Source of the DNA: Bacillota bacterium
GTDB lineage: Bacteria; Bacillota; DSM-12270; Thermacetogeniales; Thermacetogeniaceae
Direction of reading: 5' to 3'
Length of the DNA: 46,776 nucleotides
Assembly (NCBI GenBank): GCA_029907475.1
Contig: JARYLU010000021.1
Span: 1 to 46,776, forward strand
In this document: piece after piece, positions 1,554-12,866 of the stretch
Numbering within the stretch: the stretch's first letter is position 1
How the letters are laid out: every line of letters begins with the position of its first letter
Position numbers and translations under genes: made by a program
The notes under the pieces: model-generated
What the model was told of the DNA's origin: nothing
Databases searched by the model: none
What the model saw: only the letters and a program-made list of their open reading frames with translations

Positions 1554-2310
1554 ATGATGAAGGAGATGAAGAAAATGGAATTGGTGTATCATTTTAATTC
1601 CAATGAGAGTCCTGAGCTAGTACAGGTTGGAGGAAAGGGCATGTCCCTGATTCTCATGACCCAGCAGGGGCTGCCGGTACCCCCGGGGTTCGTACTATCG
1701 GTGGAATTCTTCAAACCCTGGTTTGAACAAATAAAAGGTACTCCTGAGTGGCAAAGGGTAATAAACTCTCCGTCAGGTGAACTCAAGGCACACTCAGCCG
1801 CTTTGAAAAAGCTGTGTATGACCCTTAAGCTGGATGAAGCTCGTCTGAAAGCTTTTACTGAGGCGCTGAATAACCTGGAAAAAGATCATCAGAACCCTCT
1901 GTTTGCAGTGCGGTCGTCTTCTCCGGAAGAGGATCTTGAAGGTGCTTCCTTTGCCGGAGGGTACGAGACTACGCTTGGAGTGAGAAAAGAAACAATGGAA
2001 GATGCCTTGCGCCCCTATCTCACCAGGAACCGTAAGGGGAAGAGTGAAGGTGCTCAAAAGTCCTGATGAAAAACCTGTGCTCCCGGGAGAGATCTTGGTG
2101 GCCAAGGCTACAGACCCGGGATGGACTCCCTTGTTTATCAATGCGGCAGGGGTAATCCTTGAGGTCGGTGGTATGCTCCAGCATGGAGCGCTTGTGGCAA
2201 GGGAGTATGGAAAGCCCTGTGTGTCCGGAATAGAAGATGCCGTCTCAGTTTTGCAGGACGGCCAGATGGTAGAAATGGATGGACTGAACGGTATTGTTAG
2301 ACTGCTGTGA
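1554..2310 (+). pseudogene. PEP-utilising enzyme (rifampin phosphotransferase / PEP synthase-like), internally deleted
   Basis: Residues 1-150 match the N-terminal ATP-grasp part of PEP synthase/rifampin phosphotransferase (VGGKGMSLILM, GLPVPPGFV, FAVRSSSPEEDLEGASFAGGYET). Near 2025 the homology jumps, in another frame (2002-2310), to the C-terminal phosphohistidine swivel domain, with catalytic His in GGMLQHGALVAREYGKP. Family members are about 800-900 residues, so roughly 500-600 residues are missing and the two ends are out of frame. Both ends being retained points to an internal deletion. The neighbouring TetR and MFS remnants favour an antibiotic-resistance enzyme over metabolic PEP synthase, which is an inference. 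Several ATGs near 1554-1566 could have been the start. Confidence 0.8.
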
Positions 2311-2350: not shown

Positions 2351-3460
2351 TTGCAACAAAGAATCCAAACGACGAATCAAATTACGGGAAAGCGCAAATG
2401 GTGGGCACTGGTCACCGTTATGGTGACCATGTTTTTTGCTTCCATGGATCAAACCATTGTCTCCACCGCTATTCCCACCATCGTCGGGGATTTACAGGGG
2501 TTTTCCCTGTATGCGTGGGTATTTAGCGTTTACATGCTAACTTCACCGGTGACCATTCCCATTTATGGTAAGTTATCCGATGTATATGGACGGAAGCCTT
2601 TTTACATCTTTGGATTAGTGATGTTCGGGATTGGGTCTATGGTCAGCGGCCAGGCCAACACAATGCTGCAACTGGTACTGGCACGCGGGCTGCAGGGAAT
2701 CGGAGCCAGCGCGATGATGAGTATGCCGCGGGCGACCGTGGGGGACATTTTTAACCCGAAAGAGCGGGGGCGCTGGATGGGGGTCATGGGGGCAGTATAT
2801 GGCTTATCCAGTATTATCGGCCCTGCTATCGGGGGCTGGATTACCGCTACCTTCTCCTGGCACTGGGTCTTCTACATCAACTTGCCCTTTGCCTTGCTGG
2901 CTATTATCGGTGTGGCATACTCTTTGCCCAAAGTTAGGGCAGAAAAACAAGTCAAGGTGGACTGGTTCGGTTCTACTCTCCTTATCATTGGTCTGATTCC
3001 AATTCTATTGGGGTTCACCTGGGCCGGAACGAAGTACGCCTGGACGTCCCCGGTGGAGTTGGCTTTGTTCGGGGGCGGCGCAATTATGTTGGTGTTGTTT
3101 ATTTAGTTTGAGCGCAAGGTTTTCGACCCGATCATAACCAATTTTGTCGCGGATTCCAAGACAGCTTTAGCGCAACCCTGCCGGGTAAAATAAAGGAGCT
3201 AACAGGCGACATATCTCAGCTCGACCACCCTGCTGACGCAGCAAGCCCAACAGGCTATCGCCGACCAGTTCGCCCGGTTCGGAGCAGCCGGCCAGGAAAT
3301 GTATCACCAGCTGTTACACGCCGTGAAGGTTTCGCTTGCCACCGGTATCAGCAATTTATTTGCAATCGCTCTTGTGTTTGCCGTGCTCTGCTTCATCGGC
3401 ACGTTTTTCTTACCGGAACGCACCCTTCAGGGAGATGAGTACTACAGTGATAAACAGTAG
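2351..3460 (+). pseudogene. DHA2-type MFS drug transporter (EmrB/QacA-like), broken
   Basis: The first 251 codons encode a well-preserved N-terminal half of a 14-TM drug:proton antiporter, with motif A (GKLSDVYGRKP) and LARGLQGIGASAMM. A TAG at 3104-3106 interrupts it; the same frame continues with FERKVFDPII, typical of the family. After about 3170 the frame is lost, and a C-terminal piece resumes around 3215-3460, including a last membrane helix and FFLPERT. A central section is therefore missing. The start is also unclear: an ATG with a good ribosome site (AGGAGA, ATG at 2334) is in a different frame, leaving only TTG at 2351. At least three lesions make it a clear pseudogene. Confidence 0.85.
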
Positions 3461-3803: not shown

Positions 3804-5018
3804 TTACTCAAAACGTAAACATTCGATAGGGTCGGCATTGGCGGCCTTCTGGGCGGGATAATAGCCAAAGAAAATTCCCACCAGTGTAGCAAAACCGATG
3901 GCCAGTAAAATAGATCCCGGCGCAACCACCGTAGGCCAGCCGGCTACCTGGGAAACAACCTTGCTCCCGACAACCCCTGTAATAATACCTATTAGGCCGC
4001 CGACCAGGCTTAAAACCAGGGCTTCGATTAAAAATTGCCCCAGGATGGCTCTGCCGGTAGCTCCAACTGCCATTCGGATACCGATTTCCTTGGTGCGTTC
4101 AGTTACCGAAACCAGCATGATGTTCATGATGCCAATGCCCCCCACCAGCAGGGAGACAGCCGCCACACTGGCCAGCATAATGGTCATGATCTTGGTTGTA
4201 TCAGCAACTGTTTCCATGACTGCCGTCATATTCTGAACAGTGAAGTCGTCCTCTTGCAGGCTGCTAAGGCGGTGCCTTTGTCTCAAGAGGTTGGTTACTG
4301 CATCCTGGACCGTCGCCAGGCTCATCTCGTCCTGGACCTGGATATTAATTACGCGGACGGATCTCTCACCTGTAAAACGCATCTGGGCGGTCGTAATGGG
4401 AATATAAACCGTATCATCCTGATCCATGCCGCCCATGCCACTACCCTGGGGAGCCAGGACGCCGATCACTGTAAACTCAAGGTTATTCAGGCGGACAGCA
4501 GCACCGACGGGATTTGCTCCAGAAGGAAAAAGGTTGGTTGCAACAGTCTGCCCGAGGACGGCCACCAGGGCTGCCCGGGCGACATCTTCGTTGGAGAAAA
4601 AGGCTCCTGATTCTACCCGCAAACTCCTGATTGCCTGGAAAGAGGTTGTTGTTCCAACAGCGTTCGTCGTCCAGGTGTTGCTGCCCGCAGCGGCGGTAAC
4701 GCTCTGGCTTGTTTCGGGTGCTACGTATTGTACAAGGGGCAGGCCGGCAATGGCCTCGGCATCATCGCTGGTAAGGCTGTTAACGGCCCCGCCAGCACCG
4801 CGGACGGGGCCAAAACCGGCCCCTGGCCTGACAACTAATAAGTTGGAGCCCATGCTGGCAATACGCTCTGTAACCTGTTTTGTAGCACCTTCGCCAACAC
4901 CGATCATAATAATCACAGCCGCCACGCCGATGATGATTCCCAGCATAGTCAACAATGAACGCATTTTATTGGCTACAAGGCCTCGCCAGGCGATTGCCAG
5001 AGCTGATCGAAAATTCAT
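3804..5018 (-). CDS. MacB/FtsX-type ABC transporter permease
   Basis: The 404-aa protein has the MacB layout: TM1 at about 20-42 (MLGIIIGVAAVIIMIGVG), a large extracytoplasmic MacB_PCD domain (about 50-270), then three TM helices, with GGIGIMNIMLVSVTERTKEIGIRMAVGA leading out of TM2 and a final PAQKAANADPIECLRFE. Such permeases do not move substrate through the membrane but transmit ATPase motion to the adaptor and outer component (mechanotransmission). The start overlaps the ATPase stop by four bases, so the two are translationally coupled. It is the last gene of the operon and is followed by a terminator. The MacB subfamily is clear; the substrate is unknown. Confidence 0.93.
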   Translation of the reverse strand: MNFRSALAIAWRGLVANKMRSLLTMLGIIIGVAAVIIMIGVGEGATKQVTERIASMGSNLLVVRPGAGFGPVRGAGGAVNSLTSDDAEAIAGLPLVQYVAPETSQSVTAAAGSNTWTTNAVGTTTSFQAIRSLRVESGAFFSNEDVARAALVAVLGQTVATNLFPSGANPVGAAVRLNNLEFTVIGVLAPQGSGMGGMDQDDTVYIPITTAQMRFTGERSVRVINIQVQDEMSLATVQDAVTNLLRQRHRLSSLQEDDFTVQNMTAVMETVADTTKIMTIMLASVAAVSLLVGGIGIMNIMLVSVTERTKEIGIRMAVGATGRAILGQFLIEALVLSLVGGLIGIITGVVGSKVVSQVAGWPTVVAPGSILLAIGFATLVGIFFGYYPAQKAANADPIECLRFE

Positions 5019-5764
5019 AAGCGGCCCTCCTCTTGAGATATGGCTGCCAGCTCTTTTTCCGGTTGCTGCACTTCCTTAATTACCCTGTCTTCGATGATTG
5101 TGCCGTCGCGCAGGCGTACCAGCCGCCGGCAGTAGTCAGCAATGTCGGGCTCGTGGGTGACGATGATAATCGTCAATCCCCGTTCCCGGTTCAGATGCTG
5201 CAGCAAGGCCATGATTTCTTTACTCGTTTGGGTATCCAGGGCCCCGGTAGGCTCATCGGCCAGGATTGTTTCCGGCTCGTTAATCAGCGCGCGGGCAATA
5301 GCCACCCGTTGCTGCTCGCCGCCGGAAAGCTGGGTGGGCAGATGCATCTCCCTTCCCTGCAACCCTACCTGTTGTAAAGCGGCCCAAGCCCTGGTCTTCA
5401 TTGCTTTACCGGGAACTCCGGCGTAAATCAAAGGTAGGCAGACATTTTCCCATGCCGTGGTATTACTTAAAAGGTTAAAGCTCTGAAACACGAAGCCGAA
5501 CTGACGATTCCGGATGTAGGCCAGGCTGTCCCGGTCCAGCATGGTCACATCTTGTCCCCTCAACAAGTACCGGCCACTCGTGGGGCGATCGAGGCACCCC
5601 AGGATATGCATCAGGGTGGATTTACCCGACCCCGACGCCCCCATAATGGCCGCCATTTCTCCCTTTTGAACGACTAAATCGATACCCTTTAATGCCTGTA
5701 CCAGAGTCTCCCCGGTAGCATAGACTTTGGTGACCTTGTCGACCTGTATTAAAGAATCGCCCAT
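5015..5764 (-). CDS. MacB/LolD-type ABC transporter ATP-binding protein
   Basis: This 249-aa ATPase has Walker A (GASGSGKST), Q-loop region (GFVFQSFNLLSNTTAWENV), signature LSGGEQQRVAIARAL, Walker B (TILADEPTGALD) and the switch His in IIIVTHEP. It belongs to the MacB/LolD/FtsE group that pairs with FtsX-like permeases, here encoded immediately downstream with a 4-base overlap. The last 25 residues are a charged tail beyond the usual domain. Only 9 bp separate it from the adaptor gene upstream, so the three form a tripartite-type export module. Confidence 0.95.
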   Translation of the reverse strand: MGDSLIQVDKVTKVYATGETLVQALKGIDLVVQKGEMAAIMGASGSGKSTLMHILGCLDRPTSGRYLLRGQDVTMLDRDSLAYIRNRQFGFVFQSFNLLSNTTAWENVCLPLIYAGVPGKAMKTRAWAALQQVGLQGREMHLPTQLSGGEQQRVAIARALINEPETILADEPTGALDTQTSKEIMALLQHLNRERGLTIIIVTHEPDIADYCRRLVRLRDGTIIEDRVIKEVQQPEKELAAISQEEGRL

Positions 5765-5773
5765 GATTTAATT

Positions 5774-7417
5774 TCACATCCCCCTCATCCTTATTGTCGG
5801 TTGCAGGGGAGGGTTAACCCCCCTCATTGATGAGGGTGAACTGCTGCTGCTGCTTTCCGCCGACTTACCGGGGGTGCTGGCGCCGATAATTACCTCTTCA
5901 CCTACCTTTAGCCCGCTTTTAACCTCAATGTTGCTTTCGTCGCTCAAGCCGGTGACAATATGCCTGACTACTGGCTGTCCTTTTTCCATGACCAGGACTA
6001 CAGCCCGATTCCCACTGCCTGCCGCTTGCCCCGGCTCATCTTTGAGCTGGAACTCCTCCGGCATGTTCTTCTTCATTTCTTCCTGAAACTGCTCACGGGT
6101 AATCTCGCCTCTCTCAAGCTTACCCCTAAGGTCTTCCAATTTTGCTTTCAACTCTTCGGAAAGCTCTCCTCTTCTGCCATCATCCGGCGATAGCATTTCT
6201 CTTCCCGCCTGACGGCTATCCGTTGTTTTTATTCCATTGGCATTACCACCGCTTGATGCTGTGCGGTCAGTTGCATTGTCAGTCCTTGTTGCCCGGTAAC
6301 TGGCTGCAAAATTTACCGCCGCCCGGGGCACGGTAATCACATTGTCCCTTTGAGAGACAATGATGTTGACGCTTGCCGACATCCCGGCTTTAAGGAGACT
6401 GCCGGGGTCGGTCAGGGAGACAACGACGTCGTATAGCTGGACGTTGGATACCGTTGTCGCCTCCGGAGAAATCCAGGCCACCTCGCCGTTAAAGGTCCGC
6501 TCCGGGAAAGCGTTGACGGTAAAGGTCGCCTTCTGGCCAACCTTGACCTGGCTGATATCCGCCTCATTAACCTGGGCACGCAACTGGAGGCCGGTTGTGA
6601 TCAGAGTGATGAGACCGGCGGTGCTGTCGGAACTTTCGCTGCCCCCGCCGCTCGTGCGCTGGCCGGTTTCACCTCTCACGGCAGCGATGACCCCGTCGAA
6701 GGGTGCCCGCAGCCGGGCGGAATCAAGATCGTTTTGGGCCAGTGTAAGCTGCGCCTGCGCGGTTTCGACCTGCGCCTCGGCGGCGGCTATATCTTCGGGG
6801 CGATTACCACTTTTTAGTGCTTCGAGGGCGGCTTGAGCCTGGCGTAACCTGGCGGCAGCCGTGTCGCGGTTAACAAGAGAATTGTTAAAATCGACCTGGG
6901 CCAGGGCTCCTATTTCAAAAAGGGCCTGATCGCGCTTTAAAGCCTCTTCGGCGCTGTCGTAGGCAACCTGGGCCTGGGCTACATTGGCTTCCGCCTGAGC
7001 AATGTCTGTTTCCAGCGCCCCTGCTTCCAAAAGGCGCAGCTTCGCCTCGGCAGCTTTAAGACTGGCTCTTGCCTGAACCACCTGGGCCTCCAGGTCGGCA
7101 GTATCAAGGCATGCCAGGAGCTGCCCTTTCTTAACCTGGTCGCCGGGTTTAACGTATATCTCTTTGATGAAACCGCTGGTTTTGAAATTCAGACCAACGC
7201 TTTTAACCGCCTCGATCGTTCCTGTTGCCCTGACCGTGTTGACTATGCTTCCTTGCCTGACAGGCATGGACATGTAGTTTACCTGGCCCTGGCGCCCCTG
7301 CCACCACCAGTACCCTGCACCGATAACCAGTACAGCTAAACAACCAAGCAATAAAAATAACCCTTTACGCCTCTGTTGAGGCTTTAAAACAGCTACTGCC
7401 TCGGTCGTCGTGGCCAC
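5774..7417 (-). CDS. HlyD/MacA-family efflux adaptor carrying an inserted SHOCT-like module
   Basis: The 547-aa adaptor has one N-terminal membrane anchor (about residues 18-38), a barrel-sandwich half-motif (AGYxxxV-like, VKPGDQVKKGQLLACLD), a long alpha-hairpin coiled coil rich in Ala/Gln (about 90-235), the second lipoyl half (RAPFDGVIAAVRGETGQ), a beta-barrel, and a membrane-proximal domain. Between the last two (about residues 375-460) is an unusual insertion containing ELSEELKAKLEDLRGKLE followed by GEITREQFQEEMKK, nearly identical to a repeat of the secreted protein at 10083-10709. The start is unsure: the GTG at 7417 touches its own AGGAGG, so initiation slightly downstream, even at ACG, is possible. 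Confidence 0.9.
   Translation of the reverse strand: MATTTEAVAVLKPQQRRKGLFLLLGCLAVLVIGAGYWWWQGRQGQVNYMSMPVRQGSIVNTVRATGTIEAVKSVGLNFKTSGFIKEIYVKPGDQVKKGQLLACLDTADLEAQVVQARASLKAAEAKLRLLEAGALETDIAQAEANVAQAQVAYDSAEEALKRDQALFEIGALAQVDFNNSLVNRDTAAARLRQAQAALEALKSGNRPEDIAAAEAQVETAQAQLTLAQNDLDSARLRAPFDGVIAAVRGETGQRTSGGGSESSDSTAGLITLITTGLQLRAQVNEADISQVKVGQKATFTVNAFPERTFNGEVAWISPEATTVSNVQLYDVVVSLTDPGSLLKAGMSASVNIIVSQRDNVITVPRAAVNFAASYRATRTDNATDRTASSGGNANGIKTTDSRQAGREMLSPDDGRRGELSEELKAKLEDLRGKLERGEITREQFQEEMKKNMPEEFQLKDEPGQAAGSGNRAVVLVMEKGQPVVRHIVTGLSDESNIEVKSGLKVGEEVIIGASTPGKSAESSSSSSPSSMRGVNPPLQPTIRMRGM
6070..6178 (-). repeat. SHOCT-like module within the adaptor, shared with the repeat protein
   Basis: This stretch encodes the adaptor's inserted module. 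Compared by eye with 10272-10380 on the plus strand, most bases agree over about 105 bp, including long runs of identical codons. This implies recent duplication or exchange between the two genes rather than convergent evolution. Confidence 0.8.
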
Positions 7418-7449
7418 CTCCTGAATTTTCCTTGAATTTCTTACTTTAA

Positions 7450-8544
7450 TTAGGCACCTCCGCCGGAAGCAGCCCAGGGTTTCTCAAAAGCCATTCTTAG
7501 ATAGGTGTGGTTTCGAACCGCTTCTTCTACAGCATCTTGGGCCTGAGTTACCTCCACTTCGGCAGCTACCAGTTCCGCCCTGGTGATCATGCCGATATCA
7601 AATTTCACCTGCGCGACACGCAGCTTTTGCTGAGCTGCTTTTAGCGCTTCCTGGGCCGTATTGTATTTTTCCTCAAGACTTTTAGCCTGGTAATACAGAC
7701 TGCGAGTAACATTGGCCAGAAGTTCTTTAGCGCCGGCTGCATCCAGCTCTGCCTGATCAAGTTCCGTTTGCCTTACCTCATATGGTGTGTAATCGCCACT
7801 AAAATATATCATGTCGGCAGCCCACTTCGCCAGGGTTACTTTCTGTTGGGCAAGCCAGGCGCTGGGGCTTTCTTCGATGACCCGCTGTACTTCATAGTCG
7901 AGGTTGGCCACTTCTAAAGGCTCGTAGGCGGGCTTATCTGTCAACCTCGGTCGCTCATTAGAGCCTAGCCCGACCAGCTGGTTGAAGGCGTTGTAGGCAT
8001 CCTCCAGGCTATGCCTGGCGGTAACCTCATTGCTTTGCGCCTGTTTCCATTGCAATTCAGCTTCGCTCAGGCTTGAAGGGGATGCTGCACCATACGTAAG
8101 CCGGTTACGGGTGTTTTGCAAGTTGATCAGAGCTTGTTGCGTCAATTTTTCCATGGTAGCCAGTTTCATTTCCGCCACCTGGACATCCCAGTAGCCTTTG
8201 CAAACTTTTAGCACCAGGGCGTCCGTAGTCGAAGTCAATGTTTTTTTGCTCATCTGCCAGTTGAGATCGGCTGAGAGCAGCCTGTTCCAGCTGACCTCGA
8301 TTTCCGGGTTATAGGTTTCTCCCTCGGCAGGAATAAAGCTCAGCGCTTCACTTGCTTTCTCCCGGAGTGCTTCTGTTCGCTTAACTTCATATTGGGCTTT
8401 TTTCAGGTCCTTGCTGTTGCTAAGAGCCAGATTTAAAGCATCTTCAAGAGTCAGAGCCCTGTTTTCCTGTTCTGCAAAAGCTTTAGGTAACGGGAGTCCC
8501 AGCACAAAGAATAAAATCAGGAACAAGGTAATGCCCTTCCGCAT
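7450..8544 (-). CDS. TolC-family protein (outer-membrane efflux protein fold)
   Basis: The 364-aa product has a Sec signal peptide (MRKGITLFLILFFVLGLPLPKAFA) and two OEP repeats: NRALTLEDALNLALSNSKDLKKA at the start, long coiled coils, and EALKAAQQKLRVAQVKFDIGMITRAELVAAE near the end. I set the start at the ATG ending at 8544 because an AGGAGG lies 6 bp upstream; the longer frame has no such site. At 364 aa it is shorter than proteobacterial TolC (about 470), mostly in the porin-like loops. A TolC fold in an otherwise monoderm-looking genome is notable: it could span a thick wall or be part of a diderm envelope. It sits 32 bp from the adaptor gene. Confidence 0.88.
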   Translation of the reverse strand: MRKGITLFLILFFVLGLPLPKAFAEQENRALTLEDALNLALSNSKDLKKAQYEVKRTEALREKASEALSFIPAEGETYNPEIEVSWNRLLSADLNWQMSKKTLTSTTDALVLKVCKGYWDVQVAEMKLATMEKLTQQALINLQNTRNRLTYGAASPSSLSEAELQWKQAQSNEVTARHSLEDAYNAFNQLVGLGSNERPRLTDKPAYEPLEVANLDYEVQRVIEESPSAWLAQQKVTLAKWAADMIYFSGDYTPYEVRQTELDQAELDAAGAKELLANVTRSLYYQAKSLEEKYNTAQEALKAAQQKLRVAQVKFDIGMITRAELVAAEVEVTQAQDAVEEAVRNHTYLRMAFEKPWAASGGGA

Positions 8545-8606
8545 TTCATCCCTCCTCGTTTTTCTTCCGGACACTGTGGAGTCGCCCGGTATCCGGCCTT
8601 TTCGTA

Positions 8607-9176
8607 CTAGTCCGGCCAGATCAACTGGATAAAAGTAACAGACTGCTCACCACTCGAAAGTTTTTCTCCAAACCACAACATTAATAAATCGCCTTCCTGA
8701 ATATCCCCGACTTCGAGCCGGGCTGTTTCCTGATTTTCGGAGTTCCTGTTAAAGTCTTGAATTTTAATGATTTGGGCATCTGCAGAAATTACCAGGTCGA
8801 ATGTTTTATCTGTAACCTGGAACATTTCTGCTCTGCGCTCGGCACGTTCTTCCGGACTTGGAGGCGGCTCCCCCTGCCTTTGTTGAATTTCGCTTCTTTC
8901 AGGAGGTCCACTTTCAGGAGGTCCAGAGGGCCTGCTTGGCGTCCTGACCTCGTAAACGGTTAACTTGTTACCGGCAATGGTTTTCACTTTTCCGATCATC
9001 TCGGGGGGCCTTCCGGGAGGCGCAGGCTGCTTTATGTTCTCGCCGGATGCTGTTACACTCGCAGAATCCTTCGCCCCGGTGTTACCTGCCGAGTCGGTCT
9101 TGGAGCTACATCCTGCTGCCACCAAGAACAAGAACAGGAAAACAGTTGCCGCTGCCAACAATTTCTTGCCCAACAT
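8607..9176 (-). CDS. Secreted lipoprotein of unknown function in the efflux operon
   Basis: The 189-aa protein begins with a lipoprotein signal (MLGKKLLAAATVFLFLFLVAAGCSS, lipobox VAAGC, lipidated Cys near residue 22). It continues with a Pro/Arg/Glu-rich linker (about 70-110) flanked by small beta-rich segments (MIGKVKTIAGNKLTVYEV and LEVGDIQEGDLLMLWFGE) that look like a split OB/beta-barrel. The ATG ending at 9176 was preferred to an upstream start because GAGGTGG lies just before it. I do not recognise a family. Its place between the sigma-like gene and tolC suggests an envelope accessory or a sensor of the exported compound. Confidence 0.75.
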   Translation of the reverse strand: MLGKKLLAAATVFLFLFLVAAGCSSKTDSAGNTGAKDSASVTASGENIKQPAPPGRPPEMIGKVKTIAGNKLTVYEVRTPSRPSGPPESGPPERSEIQQRQGEPPPSPEERAERRAEMFQVTDKTFDLVISADAQIIKIQDFNRNSENQETARLEVGDIQEGDLLMLWFGEKLSSGEQSVTFIQLIWPD

Positions 9177-9294
9177 AAAAATTCCACCTCTCCTCACTAC
9201 TTACCTGCTATTACATATTCTCCGACACAGTGAAAAATACAGAAAATATTAACACCAGACCGTACCTTCCATCACCTCCAGTTGCAAACCGGCT

Positions 9295-9816
9295 TTAGCC
9301 GCCCGGGCAGTGGGCGCCTTTTTCCTCAACTTTTATGGGATTTTCAGGGAGAAGGGCGGTTTCATTCAGCTCTTGCAGGAGGCACTCTCTTCCCCTTGCG
9401 TAGATCGCGGAAACCCTTGCTTTTGAGTTGCCAGTGTACAGGGATATTTCCTTGCAGTCCAGTCTGGCTGTTTCCCTTAACAGCAGGACCAACCTTTCTT
9501 CGGGGGGCAAGCGGAGGATGGCGTCCTGGAGTTTTGCTTCCAAGTCGGTGCGGTCAGTTTTACTTTTTGGATGGTTATTTGTTGCGCTGAACTCGTCAAG
9601 AAAGTAAGAGCAAAATGTTTTCCATATCGTTAAGTCGTCAAGACCCGAACCGGCTTCGGCGCAGAGATCAAAAGTCTGTTTTATCAGAGACTCTGCCGTC
9701 TCTTTGGAACCTGAAAGGTGGAGGCTTAAGTTGTACATTTGGTTTATTATTTCTGTTAACCAGGGTGTTTTCTTCTGAGAACCTCTCCGGAATGGCGTCC
9801 AAAATTTCCTTCTCAT
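9295..9816 (-). CDS. ECF sigma factor-like protein
   Basis: The 173-aa protein has an ECF layout: a degenerate region 2 (about 20-75, SKETAESLIKQTFDLCAEAG) and a clearer region 4 (about 95-150, LPPEERLVLLLRETARLDCKEI followed by an HTH ending ARVSAIYARGRECLLQEL). It is first in the minus-strand efflux operon, 118 bp before the lipoprotein gene, so it probably activates this operon or its own promoter. No anti-sigma gene is adjacent; the lipoprotein or the divergent two-component system may serve that role (inference). No good ribosome site precedes the ATG at 9816, so the start may differ. Confidence 0.65.
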   Translation of the reverse strand: MRRKFWTPFRRGSQKKTPWLTEIINQMYNLSLHLSGSKETAESLIKQTFDLCAEAGSGLDDLTIWKTFCSYFLDEFSATNNHPKSKTDRTDLEAKLQDAILRLPPEERLVLLLRETARLDCKEISLYTGNSKARVSAIYARGRECLLQELNETALLPENPIKVEEKGAHCPGG

Positions 9817-10082
9817 AGCTAAAATTTATAAATGAAAATTGTGGGAGAATTATCAAGAAATTATGGGAGATTATGAAAAAACTGCTTCCCCGAAAGCGGT
9901 AATGGTGCATACAATCCATGACCAATTAGAAACAAGGTAAATACTTCCTCTAGAGCAAGACTAATAAAGATCAATCAGCCGACACCCTCATGGTTGTTCG
10001 ATTTCACAATTTCCCATGAACTTTTGATAATTTTTCCGCACTTTTGCTTCATACTGATAACCGGGAGGTACTCAAAAACAAT
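9817..10082. other. Divergent intergenic region between the efflux operon and the repeat-protein gene
   Basis: This 266-bp AT-rich stretch must hold both divergent promoters. TTGATA at 10024-10029 with CATACT at 10050-10055 is a weak plus-strand candidate (20-bp spacer). The bases GGGAGG (about 10063-10068) precede an ATG directly followed by TGA (10081-10086), a minimal start-stop just ahead of the real gene. No other gene is supported. Confidence 0.4.
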
Positions 10083-10709
10083 GTGAAAGGAGTGGTTACC
10101 ATTAACTGGAAGAGAAGCGTAATTCCTGTTACTCTTGCCTTAACACTCCTAATACCAACAGCAGCGTTCGCAGCTAGAAACGTAAGCGCCGATGATAATA
10201 AGAAGGATTTTAGCAGGCTGCGTACGGCAATTACCGAGCAGGCACAATTTACAGGAGAATTACGCGGTAAAAGAGGAGAACTTCCCGAAGAGTTGAAAGC
10301 AAAACTGGAAGACCTCAAGGGCAAGCTTGAAAGCGGCGAGATTACCCGCGAGCAATTTCGGGAAGAAATGAAGAAGATCATGCCTGAGAAGTTTCCGTTA
10401 CAAGGAAGAGAGCTTTCCGAAGAGTTGAAGGCAAAAATAGCGGAGTTGAGAGACGAGCTTAAAAATGGCGAACTGACACCCGAACAGTTTCGGGAAGAGA
10501 TGAAGCAGCTTTTGCCGGAGGGGTTTCAGCCTAAAGAGGGAGAAAGGTGGCCCGGTAAAAGAGGAGAGCTTCCCGAAGAGTTGAAAGCAAAATTTGAGGA
10601 ACTCAAGGGCAAGCTTGAGGGCGGCGAGATTACCCGCGAGCAGTTTCGGGAAGAAATGAAGCAGTTGAGACAGGAACAATTTCAATACTTGAAAGCCCAG
10701 CAACAATAA
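10083..10709 (+). CDS. Secreted protein with three SHOCT-like repeats
   Basis: The roughly 208-aa product has a signal peptide (INWKRSVIPVTLALTLLIPTAAFA) and then three copies of a 40-45 residue unit. Its core reads LPEELKAKLEDLKGKL, then (E/N)GE(I/L)T(R/P)EQFREEMK. This two-helix pattern resembles the SHOCT/short C-terminal oligomerisation motif. Units 1 and 3 are closest to each other and to the module inserted in the divergently encoded efflux adaptor. The start is ambiguous: GTG at 10083 follows GGGAGG by about 14 bp, while GTG at 10092 overlaps AAAGGAG. The protein precedes the two-component genes and probably acts outside the membrane. Function is unknown; a chaperone or sensor docking to the adaptor is inferred. 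Confidence 0.8.
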   Translation: MKGVVTINWKRSVIPVTLALTLLIPTAAFAARNVSADDNKKDFSRLRTAITEQAQFTGELRGKRGELPEELKAKLEDLKGKLESGEITREQFREEMKKIMPEKFPLQGRELSEELKAKIAELRDELKNGELTPEQFREEMKQLLPEGFQPKEGERWPGKRGELPEELKAKFEELKGKLEGGEITREQFREEMKQLRQEQFQYLKAQQQ

Positions 10710-10749: not shown

Positions 10750-10783
10750 AAAAGGACGTGTTGTAAAAAAATACGTCCTTTTT
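10750..10783 (+). terminator. Terminator after the repeat-protein gene
   Basis: AAAAGGACGT (10750-10759) and ACGTCCTTTT (10773-10782) form a 10-bp stem running into TTTTT. It separates the repeat-protein gene from the regulator genes. Confidence 0.8.
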
Positions 10784-10812: not shown

Positions 10813-11490
10813 GTGTCTTTTCGAATTTATTTAGTTGAGGATGATCGCAACCTAAATTCCGTGCTGACCAGTTATTTACAAAAAGAAGGGTGGCAGGTCT
10901 CCTCTTTTTTTACCGGAGAAGCAGCGAGACAAGCCATCGACGGTTCTCCCCATTTATGGATATTGGACATTATGCTCCCTGACATCGACGGTTTCCAGCT
11001 TATCAAAGAGATTAAAGCCGCTTCACCTGATATCCCGGTAATTTTTATTTCTGCCCGGGATGCTGACATCGACCGGGTTGTTGGGCTGGAAATGGGCAGT
11101 GACGATTATCTGCCAAAACCTTTTCTGCCCCGCGAGTTAGTGATCCGGACTCGTAAACTGTTGGAGCGTGTATATATGAGCACTGCGCAACAGACCGAGA
11201 CATTGGCCCTGACGATTTCTCCCTATTATATCAATGAGGCAAGCAGAACAATCAGGTTAGGCGAAGGAGCCGTTGAGCTGACCTCCAAAGAATTCGACCT
11301 CTTGCTTTTCTTTGCCAAAAATCAAGGACAGGCATTATCCAGGGGACAGATACTCAATTATATCTGGGGTGAAGATTATTTCGGAACAGACCGGGTAGTT
11401 GACGATCTGGTCAGACGACTACGCAAAAAGATGCCGGAGTTGCGCATCGAAACGATATACGGGTATGGTTACCGGATGGTGAAGTCATGA
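10813..11490 (+). CDS. OmpR/PhoB-family response regulator
   Basis: This 225-aa protein has a receiver domain (acidic pair EDD near the N-terminus, phospho-acceptor Asp52 in WILDIMLPDIDGF, Lys in LPKPF) and a C-terminal winged helix (VELTSKEFDLLLFFAKN to IETIYGYGYRM). GTG at 10813 is the start: GGAGGT lies 6 bp upstream, and the ATG two bases earlier is out of frame. It overlaps the downstream kinase gene by four bases. Given the neighbours it probably controls the repeat protein and/or the divergent efflux operon, as envelope-stress systems do; this is inferred from position. Confidence 0.95.
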   Translation: MSFRIYLVEDDRNLNSVLTSYLQKEGWQVSSFFTGEAARQAIDGSPHLWILDIMLPDIDGFQLIKEIKAASPDIPVIFISARDADIDRVVGLEMGSDDYLPKPFLPRELVIRTRKLLERVYMSTAQQTETLALTISPYYINEASRTIRLGEGAVELTSKEFDLLLFFAKNQGQALSRGQILNYIWGEDYFGTDRVVDDLVRRLRKKMPELRIETIYGYGYRMVKS

Positions 11491-12866
11491 AAAATCTTCC
11501 GTTATCTCTGCAGATCTGGTTGGTTTTTACTGCCATTGCTTTAGGGATCTCAATCTCATTAACCGTTTTGTTCCCCTGGACTTTGCGAGATTTCTTTACC
11601 CGAGAAATTTATGCCACTATCGAAAGCGCTCAAAGTTTGCTCTTTAATCGACTTGCCAGCGAGTTGAATAGAGAGATGTGGGAACCGGGGGTTTTTGCTG
11701 ACCGAAGGCAACAACCGCAGGATATTCGCGCCGTTAATCATATTATAGTCTCATTCGAAAACGGTGAGTTCATTTCTTTCCCCCTCCCCCTCCTTTCTGA
11801 AGAATTCTGGTACAAGGTAAAAAATGAAGCAAAAGAACAAAAAGGTGACAGCCAGCGGTATAGTGGTCAGGTTGGGGGCAGAAAAATATTTTACGTAATA
11901 ACCAGAAGTAATGTACGGGGGCGTAACGTTTTTCTTGTCTCGTATATGTGGGATTCTTACCGCGAGGATCTGGTGCAAACCCTTTTTAAAAGATTAGTAT
12001 TAATAATGAGCTTTGTTTTTCTACTTAGTTGGGTGCCCTCTCTTGGTCTGGCAAGATATTTATCTAACCCGTTGGTAACTTTAGAGAAACGCGTTAAAAA
12101 GCTTGCTAACCGCGACTGGCATGAGCCCATCCAGTTACAACGCGAAGATGAAATAGGCAGGTTAGGCCAGTCCGTAGAGCAGCTGAGAACCCATCTGATT
12201 CGGCAGGATGAAGCTCAGCAGTCGTTTTTGCAGCATATATCCCATGAGCTAAAAACTCCTGTTATGGTAATCCGCAGTTATGTGCAGTCAATTCGCGACG
12301 GCATCTATCCGAAAGGAGACTTAACAAGCACGGTACAGGTAATCGAAGAAGAGGCCGAGCGACTGGAAAAACGTATTCGCAACCTGCTTTATCTGACTAA
12401 ACTCGACTATATGGCAACTCATAAACCTTTGCACGAAACTTTTGATATGACCCAATTAATCAGGGAAGTAATTGAGAGGTTGCGCTGGCGTCGCAGAGAT
12501 CTGGACTGGTCGTTAAAGCTCTCTCCCGTTAAAAGCAAAGGGGATATCGAACAATGGCGGGTAGCTTTAGAAAATTTATTCGATAATCAGATACGTTATG
12601 CCAGAGAACAGATTAAAATCTCTTTAGCTCCAGGGGGCAGCAGCAACGGAACTGCTCTGATGCACATCTGGAACGATGGGCCCGCGATCGAGCAAGAAAT
12701 CCTGGACAGGCTGTTTCAAAAGTTTAATAAAGGATACAAGGGAGAATTTGGGCTCGGCCTGGCTGTTGTCCAGCGTATTGCCTCTCTGCATGGTGCCAAA
12801 ATATGGGCTGTAAACGAAGAAAAAGGAGTTTCTTTTTACCTGGAAATTCATGTTGCTTCAACTTAA
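11487..12866 (+). CDS. Membrane sensor histidine kinase (HAMP-HisKA-HATPase)
   Basis: The 459-aa kinase has TM1 (about 8-30), an extracytoplasmic sensor of about 130 residues, TM2 (about 168-188), a HAMP domain (LARYLSNPLVTLEKRVKKLA), HisKA with His253 (LQHISHELKTPVMVIRSYVQS), and an ATPase domain with N box (ENLFDNQIRYA), G1 (NDGPAI) and G2 (GLGLAVVQRIASLHG). It is coupled to the response regulator by an ATGA overlap. The sensor region has no recognisable fold. All catalytic motifs look intact. An 8-bp inverted repeat (12885-12917) follows but lacks a T tract. Confidence 0.95.
   Translation: MKNLPLSLQIWLVFTAIALGISISLTVLFPWTLRDFFTREIYATIESAQSLLFNRLASELNREMWEPGVFADRRQQPQDIRAVNHIIVSFENGEFISFPLPLLSEEFWYKVKNEAKEQKGDSQRYSGQVGGRKIFYVITRSNVRGRNVFLVSYMWDSYREDLVQTLFKRLVLIMSFVFLLSWVPSLGLARYLSNPLVTLEKRVKKLANRDWHEPIQLQREDEIGRLGQSVEQLRTHLIRQDEAQQSFLQHISHELKTPVMVIRSYVQSIRDGIYPKGDLTSTVQVIEEEAERLEKRIRNLLYLTKLDYMATHKPLHETFDMTQLIREVIERLRWRRRDLDWSLKLSPVKSKGDIEQWRVALENLFDNQIRYAREQIKISLAPGGSSNGTALMHIWNDGPAIEQEILDRLFQKFNKGYKGEFGLGLAVVQRIASLHGAKIWAVNEEKGVSFYLEIHVAST

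Follow-up and report, generated by a model that had tools for sequence, protein, structure and literature searches.

A CssRS-clade two-component system with a candidate two-promoter regulon comprising a secreted SHOCT-like repeat protein and a MacAB-TolC-like pump in a Thermacetogeniaceae bacterium

The stretch of DNA analysed here, which we will refer to as the window, comprises 46,776 nucleotides of a Bacillota bacterium of the family Thermacetogeniaceae (assembly GCA_029907475.1, contig JARYLU010000021.1; its genome is referred to as G000), and was studied together with a sample of 398 genomes of the phylum. The locus under study contains a gene for a secreted protein built from three SHOCT-like repeat units, a two-component system beside it, and a divergent operon encoding a lipoprotein and a MacAB-TolC-like efflux pump, whose adaptor carries a fourth copy of the unit (Table 1). 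The adaptor and the secreted protein with its three units had already been described in a first-pass annotation, and open reading frames (ORFs) and alignment agree with that description. The locus is probably a variant of the CssRS secretion-stress system, with the lipoprotein, the pump and the secreted SHOCT-repeat protein as its putative outputs, and the conserved candidate regulon is a more important finding than the module in the adaptor.

Table 1. Coordinates of the features of the locus within the window.
Feature	Position	Strand	Remarks
Secreted SHOCT-like repeat protein, 208 aa	10083..10709	+	signal peptide ending ...AFA; 3 units; mature part without Cys or His
Repeat unit 1	10266..10397	+	nearest to adaptor copy
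Repeat unit 2	10402..10532	+	more diverged, ~73% at DNA level
Repeat unit 3	10554..10688	+	
Fourth unit copy, membrane-proximal loop of adaptor	6050..6178	-	43-residue insertion relative to sister species
Efflux adaptor, membrane fusion protein (RND_mfp/MacA-like)	5774..7417	-	GTG start
MacB-type ATPase	5015..5764	-	
MacB-type permease (MacB_PCD + FtsX)	3804..5018	-	
TolC-family outer-membrane-type factor	7450..8574	-	
Lipoprotein	8607..9197	-	first gene of pump operon, conserved in relatives
CssR-type tandem operator (candidate), pump side	9840..9879	-	
CssR-type tandem operator (candidate), secreted-gene side	10001..10040	+	
CssR-clade response regulator	10813..11490	+	
Cognate histidine kinase, CssS position	11487..12866	+	
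Terminator-like hairpin between secreted gene and regulator	10750..10782	+	left as scar in sister species without secreted gene

The response regulator finds matches at E <= 1e-55 in 44 of the 398 sampled genomes, and phylogenetically it falls into one clade (100/100) with HtrA-linked and PrsA-linked regulators, its paralogues lying outside; it is 63-67% identical to the HtrA-linked CssR proteins. By its position in this tree, the neighbouring two-component system belongs to the CssRS (secretion-stress) clade. Elsewhere, the gene slot beside regulators of the clade is occupied by HtrA at three loci (G155, G279, G323) and by a PrsA-type foldase at one (G024), the regulator beside HtrA being the layout of Bacillus cssRS-htrB, and several more regulators of the clade directly adjoin MacB-type pumps. 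Exported-looking proteins of other kinds, about 470 and about 800 residues long, neighbour the CssR-clade regulators of G307 (L156) and of G136, G102, G371 and G241 (L175-L179).

A 40-bp ungapped motif, approximately TTTCAYAATTTCCCAYAANTTTTTGATAATTNTTCCGCA, is found before the secreted genes and before the divergent or separate pump operons, and consists of two half-sites with a spacing of about 21 bp; a -10-like hexamer comes after it at near-constant distance (as judged by eye). The published CssR box is TTTTCACA (PMC6749698), and the octamers of the window, ATTTCACA and TTTTCATA, are near matches to it. A matrix derived solely from three Bacillus-type htr operators gives its two highest scores within the window to the two sites of the locus (37.9 and 31.8 bits), the third site reaching 7.3 bits and the best of 60 shuffles 17.6; the same two sites rank first and second with a matrix built from nine other genomes, with the genus left out. 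A 39-base pattern was then searched genome-wide at up to 3 mismatches in 27 genomes, and the reversed pattern, used as a control, gave zero sites in all 27. In G000 exactly two sites appear, so that the operator precedes two transcription units, namely the secreted gene together with the regulator-kinase pair behind it, and the lipoprotein-TolC-adaptor-ATPase-permease side. Each of seven other genomes (G005, G006, G101, G166, G216, G350 and UBA9916) likewise has a site on the secreted-gene side and another on the pump side, bringing the two-promoter arrangement to eight genomes; the pump-side operator precedes the lipoprotein gene at the head of the pump operon or, in UBA9916, a tolC-type gene. 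The same-genus sister species G001 shows the pump-side site only. In each of the Bacillus-type genomes G155 and G323 the pattern matches twice, both times ahead of an HtrA gene; since the second, blindly found site precedes another HtrA gene, the pattern recovers an htrA/htrB-like pair. These blind second HtrA sites, together with the per-genome uniqueness of the pattern, carry the weight of the operator case.

The same search gave no site in G392 and G025, which have a regulator of another type, nor, at up to 3 mismatches, in G128, G024 and G307; the motif thus varies across the CssR clade, as the last three bear CssR-clade regulators. HtrA genes were not encountered as targets in G000, where no further operator occurs within 3 mismatches; an htrA gene lacking the operator was not searched for. 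The conserved 40-mer could also be nothing but a good sigma-70 promoter, leaving co-regulation not shown, as the promoter-like sequence TTCACA-17-GATAAT lies inside both window sites. Nonetheless, ordinary promoters would recur throughout a genome, whereas the 39-base pattern is confined to these and to htrA/htrB-type genes; the sites also contain near matches to the CssR octamer, and in most of the aligned sites another -10-like hexamer follows downstream at a near-constant distance, as judged by eye. This explanation is considered very improbable.

Relatives of the secreted gene, with one to four units each, are present in 14 genomes, including that of the window, and a two-component system adjoins the gene in 13 of them, the contig ending there in the 14th. 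Pump genes of the same kind (lipoprotein, MacB-type ATPase, adaptor, permease and TolC-type factor) are nearby at 10 of the 14 loci, two of which (G005 and UBA9916) show part of the pump only; no neighbouring pump is found at the loci of G025 and G274, and those of G056 and G192 reach a contig end before its presence can be judged. G001 shares the gene order of the whole locus with the window, and the two adaptors are 85% identical; the secreted gene is deleted in G001, its terminator-like hairpin still standing before the regulator. Several variants of this arrangement were observed. The short, similar secreted repeat proteins of G392 (L097) and G025 (L021) adjoin a two-component system whose regulator is of a different type in the tree, without a CssR-type operator, and in G392 the same lipoprotein-pump operon lies downstream; the secreted protein thus seems to be paired with two different regulator types. 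CssR-type regulators of G162 (L144) and G318 (L148) are preceded by secreted proteins devoid of SHOCT units; what these have in common with the longer repeat proteins are the flanking helices (YTPES..W..A and LLPKIL-type segments). At the G263 locus (L100), the secreted gene and the kinase are present with the operator between them and no intact response regulator ORF is listed; the ORF is present in G286, of the same genus.

The pump genes form one cluster (MacB_PCD + FtsX permease, ABC ATPase, membrane fusion protein and TolC-family factor), as in MacAB-TolC systems. Unlike in those, the ATPase and permease genes are separate here, and the adaptor has a long disordered loop with an inserted hairpin; the MacA and MacB equivalog cut-offs are not reached (145 bits against 342, and 293 against 966, respectively). 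The TolC-family factors of the window and of related loci belong to pump operons of possibly monoderm lineages. A pump related to that of the window lies in G004 (L053) near a pair of ECF-sigma-like and anti-sigma-like genes.

The repeat unit is 43-45 residues long. Its resemblance to SHOCT, proposed in the first-pass annotation, holds for the secreted protein, which scores 31.9 bits over three stretches against the Pfam profile (PF09851; gathering cut-off 27), whereas the adaptor copy alone stays under the cut-off at 14.3 bits; "SHOCT-like" is thus a fair label. As in SHOCT domains, a two-helix hairpin of about 30 residues is involved; SHOCT is usually a single C-terminal unit, and here the units are extracytoplasmic and in tandem in the secreted protein, with one internal unit in the adaptor. 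The same annotation had termed the module "oligomerisation-type", which is doubtful, as a direct test in the SHOCT domain paper gave no support for oligomerisation or self-association (PMC3581485). A metal-sensing role through Cys or His was ruled out by the lack of both in the mature protein. The structure model of the secreted protein is poor (mean predicted local distance difference test score, pLDDT, of 55); no relative of convincing score was found among solved structures, and Foldseek returned no match at E <= 0.001 with this low-confidence model. The LTXXQ profile is not among the 25 best of 40 Pfam matches, and homology to Spy/CpxP was rejected, there being neither a profile nor a fold match.

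We propose that the kinase would detect envelope or secretion stress, and that the phosphorylated regulator would turn on both the secreted-gene side and the pump side. Outside the membrane, the secreted protein, with its row of charged helical hairpins, may bind clients or damp the kinase in a Spy/CpxP-like role, and the pump would remove the offending compounds. Some points weigh against this view of the locus as a CssRS variant. The Bacillus seed sites were picked by eye, after the resemblance had been seen, and both operator sites contain the promoter-like sequence mentioned above. Pumps of two non-orthologous types occupy the same slot, so the identity of the pump is loosely constrained. 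The comparison with Spy and CpxP draws only on position and regulation, with no LTXXQ among the Pfam matches listed and no fold match. Alternatively, the secreted protein might be a substrate or decoy of the pump instead of its partner. MacB-type permeases and adaptors export peptides and periplasmic material, and the candidate regulon common to pump and secreted gene would suit such a relationship; the protein nonetheless has, by inspection, its own Sec-type signal peptide, and in some genomes no pump neighbours its gene, making this alternative quite improbable.

Turning to the adaptor, its residues ~419-461 constitute the fourth unit. In the 3.01-Mb genome (114 contigs), this copy and the three units of the secreted gene are the only good matches, exactly four in all (protein search, E 3e-22 to 2e-10), the next protein match having an E of only 0.29. 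The possibility that the module is common among the secreted proteins of this genome, named in the first-pass annotation as a refuting condition, was thereby rejected. The DNA match reported there between 6070-6178 and 10272-10380 is correct and extends about 20 bp further: adaptor and unit 1 are 89% identical over 123 bp (genome-wide E 5e-40), and the alignment with unit 3 covers about 110 bp. Identity to the adaptor copy over a 114-base core falls from 88% for unit 1 to 81% for unit 3 and 72% for unit 2. That the copy differs from unit 1 by 11% over the 123 bp argues against an assembly duplicate. The insertion point is defined by the G001 adaptor, in which GRKGE is directly followed by PGQ, compared with GRRGE, 43 residues and PGQ in the window; the flank GRxGE resembles GKRGE, the first residues of the unit. 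Within the membrane-proximal domain, two beta strands flank the insertion site, which falls in a long, mostly G/S/T-rich disordered loop, and the corresponding segment is hypervariable (47-117 residues) in 27 related adaptors. The AlphaFold2 single-sequence model of the adaptor, mostly of low confidence (overall mean pLDDT 50), gives the insert as a hairpin (helices 420-434 and 440-450, core pLDDT ~71-77) flanked by low-confidence stretches.

The module is absent from all 27 related adaptors of the window type and from the six adaptors of the second type at secreted-gene loci (G006, G101, G166, G216, G350 and G392), and no other adaptor with the module was found among the 398 sampled genomes. 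The adaptor module is real, and is a single-genome capture of one repeat unit; a search for genomes with the module in both partners, also suggested in the first-pass annotation, led to one genome only, and a module shared by design in many genomes was rejected. The link between pump and secreted protein proposed there is strengthened by the conserved operator common to both (eight genomes) and by their neighbourhood across the phylum, whereas the module, missing from the 27 and the six adaptors, is not supported as its basis.

Adaptor copy and unit 1 are separated by 8 synonymous and 6 non-synonymous changes (dN/dS 0.13, dS 0.53), a synonymous excess with P of 0.001-0.03 according to the share of sites taken to be synonymous. 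A very recent copying of the unit into the adaptor is unsupported at a dS of ~0.5, and the copy has persisted, since this value is comparable to or above that of the whole adaptor between the window and G001 (dS 0.37). Some sites of the copy match UBA9916 and not unit 1, so that the insertion may have come before or after the G001 split. Changes polarised with outgroups amount to 5 non-synonymous and 3 synonymous on the adaptor branch, numbers that show no clear constraint acting on the copy once it was in the adaptor. These data bear on the view that the copy is a neutral hitchhiker, recombined into a tolerant loop and devoid of any role, the idea of a partnership being an accident of it. Such a view, to which we give about an even chance, accommodates the hypervariable loop, the occurrence in one genome and the changes on the adaptor branch; the synonymous excess over unit 1, the intact frame and the conserved core residues of the hairpin speak against it. 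Under the CssRS-variant reading, one repeat unit would have entered the permissive loop in the window lineage, where its reading frame has been preserved and the hairpin stays intact between flexible linkers.

The insertion could also be read as a Rosetta stone, the secreted protein working physically on the pump (by docking, competing or delivering clients) and the fused unit tethering a partner function. This is unlikely: the adaptors of other secreted-gene systems lack the module, the secreted gene of G274 and G025 has no neighbouring pump, the case comes from one genome and one species pair, and the SHOCT oligomerisation test was negative, although secreted gene and pump side share the candidate operator in eight genomes, and module and secreted gene are both present in G000 and both missing from its sister species. 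Docking on the pump would be compatible with co-regulation; the adaptor module makes the pump-partner idea testable and does not prove binding. A further, distinctly unlikely extension is that SHOCT-repeat proteins would be extracytoplasmic client-binding sensors passing envelope-stress clients to a CssR-controlled MacAB-type pump, the adaptor having internalised one hairpin and thus short-circuiting the free protein.

The Bacillus CssRS-htrA/htrB system (class V, secretion stress) shares with the locus the regulator clade, the tandem operator with a box of the published type and an extracytoplasmic effector gene adjoining the regulator; its effectors are HtrA proteases, whereas those of the locus would be the SHOCT-repeat protein, the lipoprotein and the pump. 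The Cpx system, with CpxP and Spy, similarly has a small exported helical protein beside an envelope-stress two-component system; the locus differs from it in its SHOCT-like hairpin repeats, without detectable sequence or fold match, and in having a pump in the same candidate regulon. Outside Bacillus, Clostridioides difficile also possesses a CssRS-type system (CD1013/CD1014), whose class V regulon was stated to be unknown (PMC3408451); the targets of such non-Bacillus systems have been an open question. Here, the operator defines by sequence a two-promoter candidate regulon beyond the htrA/htrB model, which would link secretion stress to an efflux pump and places a family of extracytoplasmic SHOCT-repeat proteins of no known function in a concrete context, with the adaptor insertion as a natural tethering experiment. 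In the open-access papers searched, no CssRS-efflux or SHOCT-two-component system of such design was found.

Some minor features complete the description of the window. Between the lipoprotein gene and the pump-side operator, an ORF at 9295-9816 (minus strand) holds sigma-70 region 4 only and is possibly the remnant of an ECF sigma factor; G000 has this ORF, and in G001 (L052) deletions have degraded it. At 1554-2310 (plus strand), two fragments match enzymes of the PEP synthase/rifamycin phosphotransferase type, one the N-terminal ATP-binding part and the other the C-terminal mobile domain; with the middle missing, they represent a decayed gene, which adjoins an apparently truncated MFS transporter (2351-3106).

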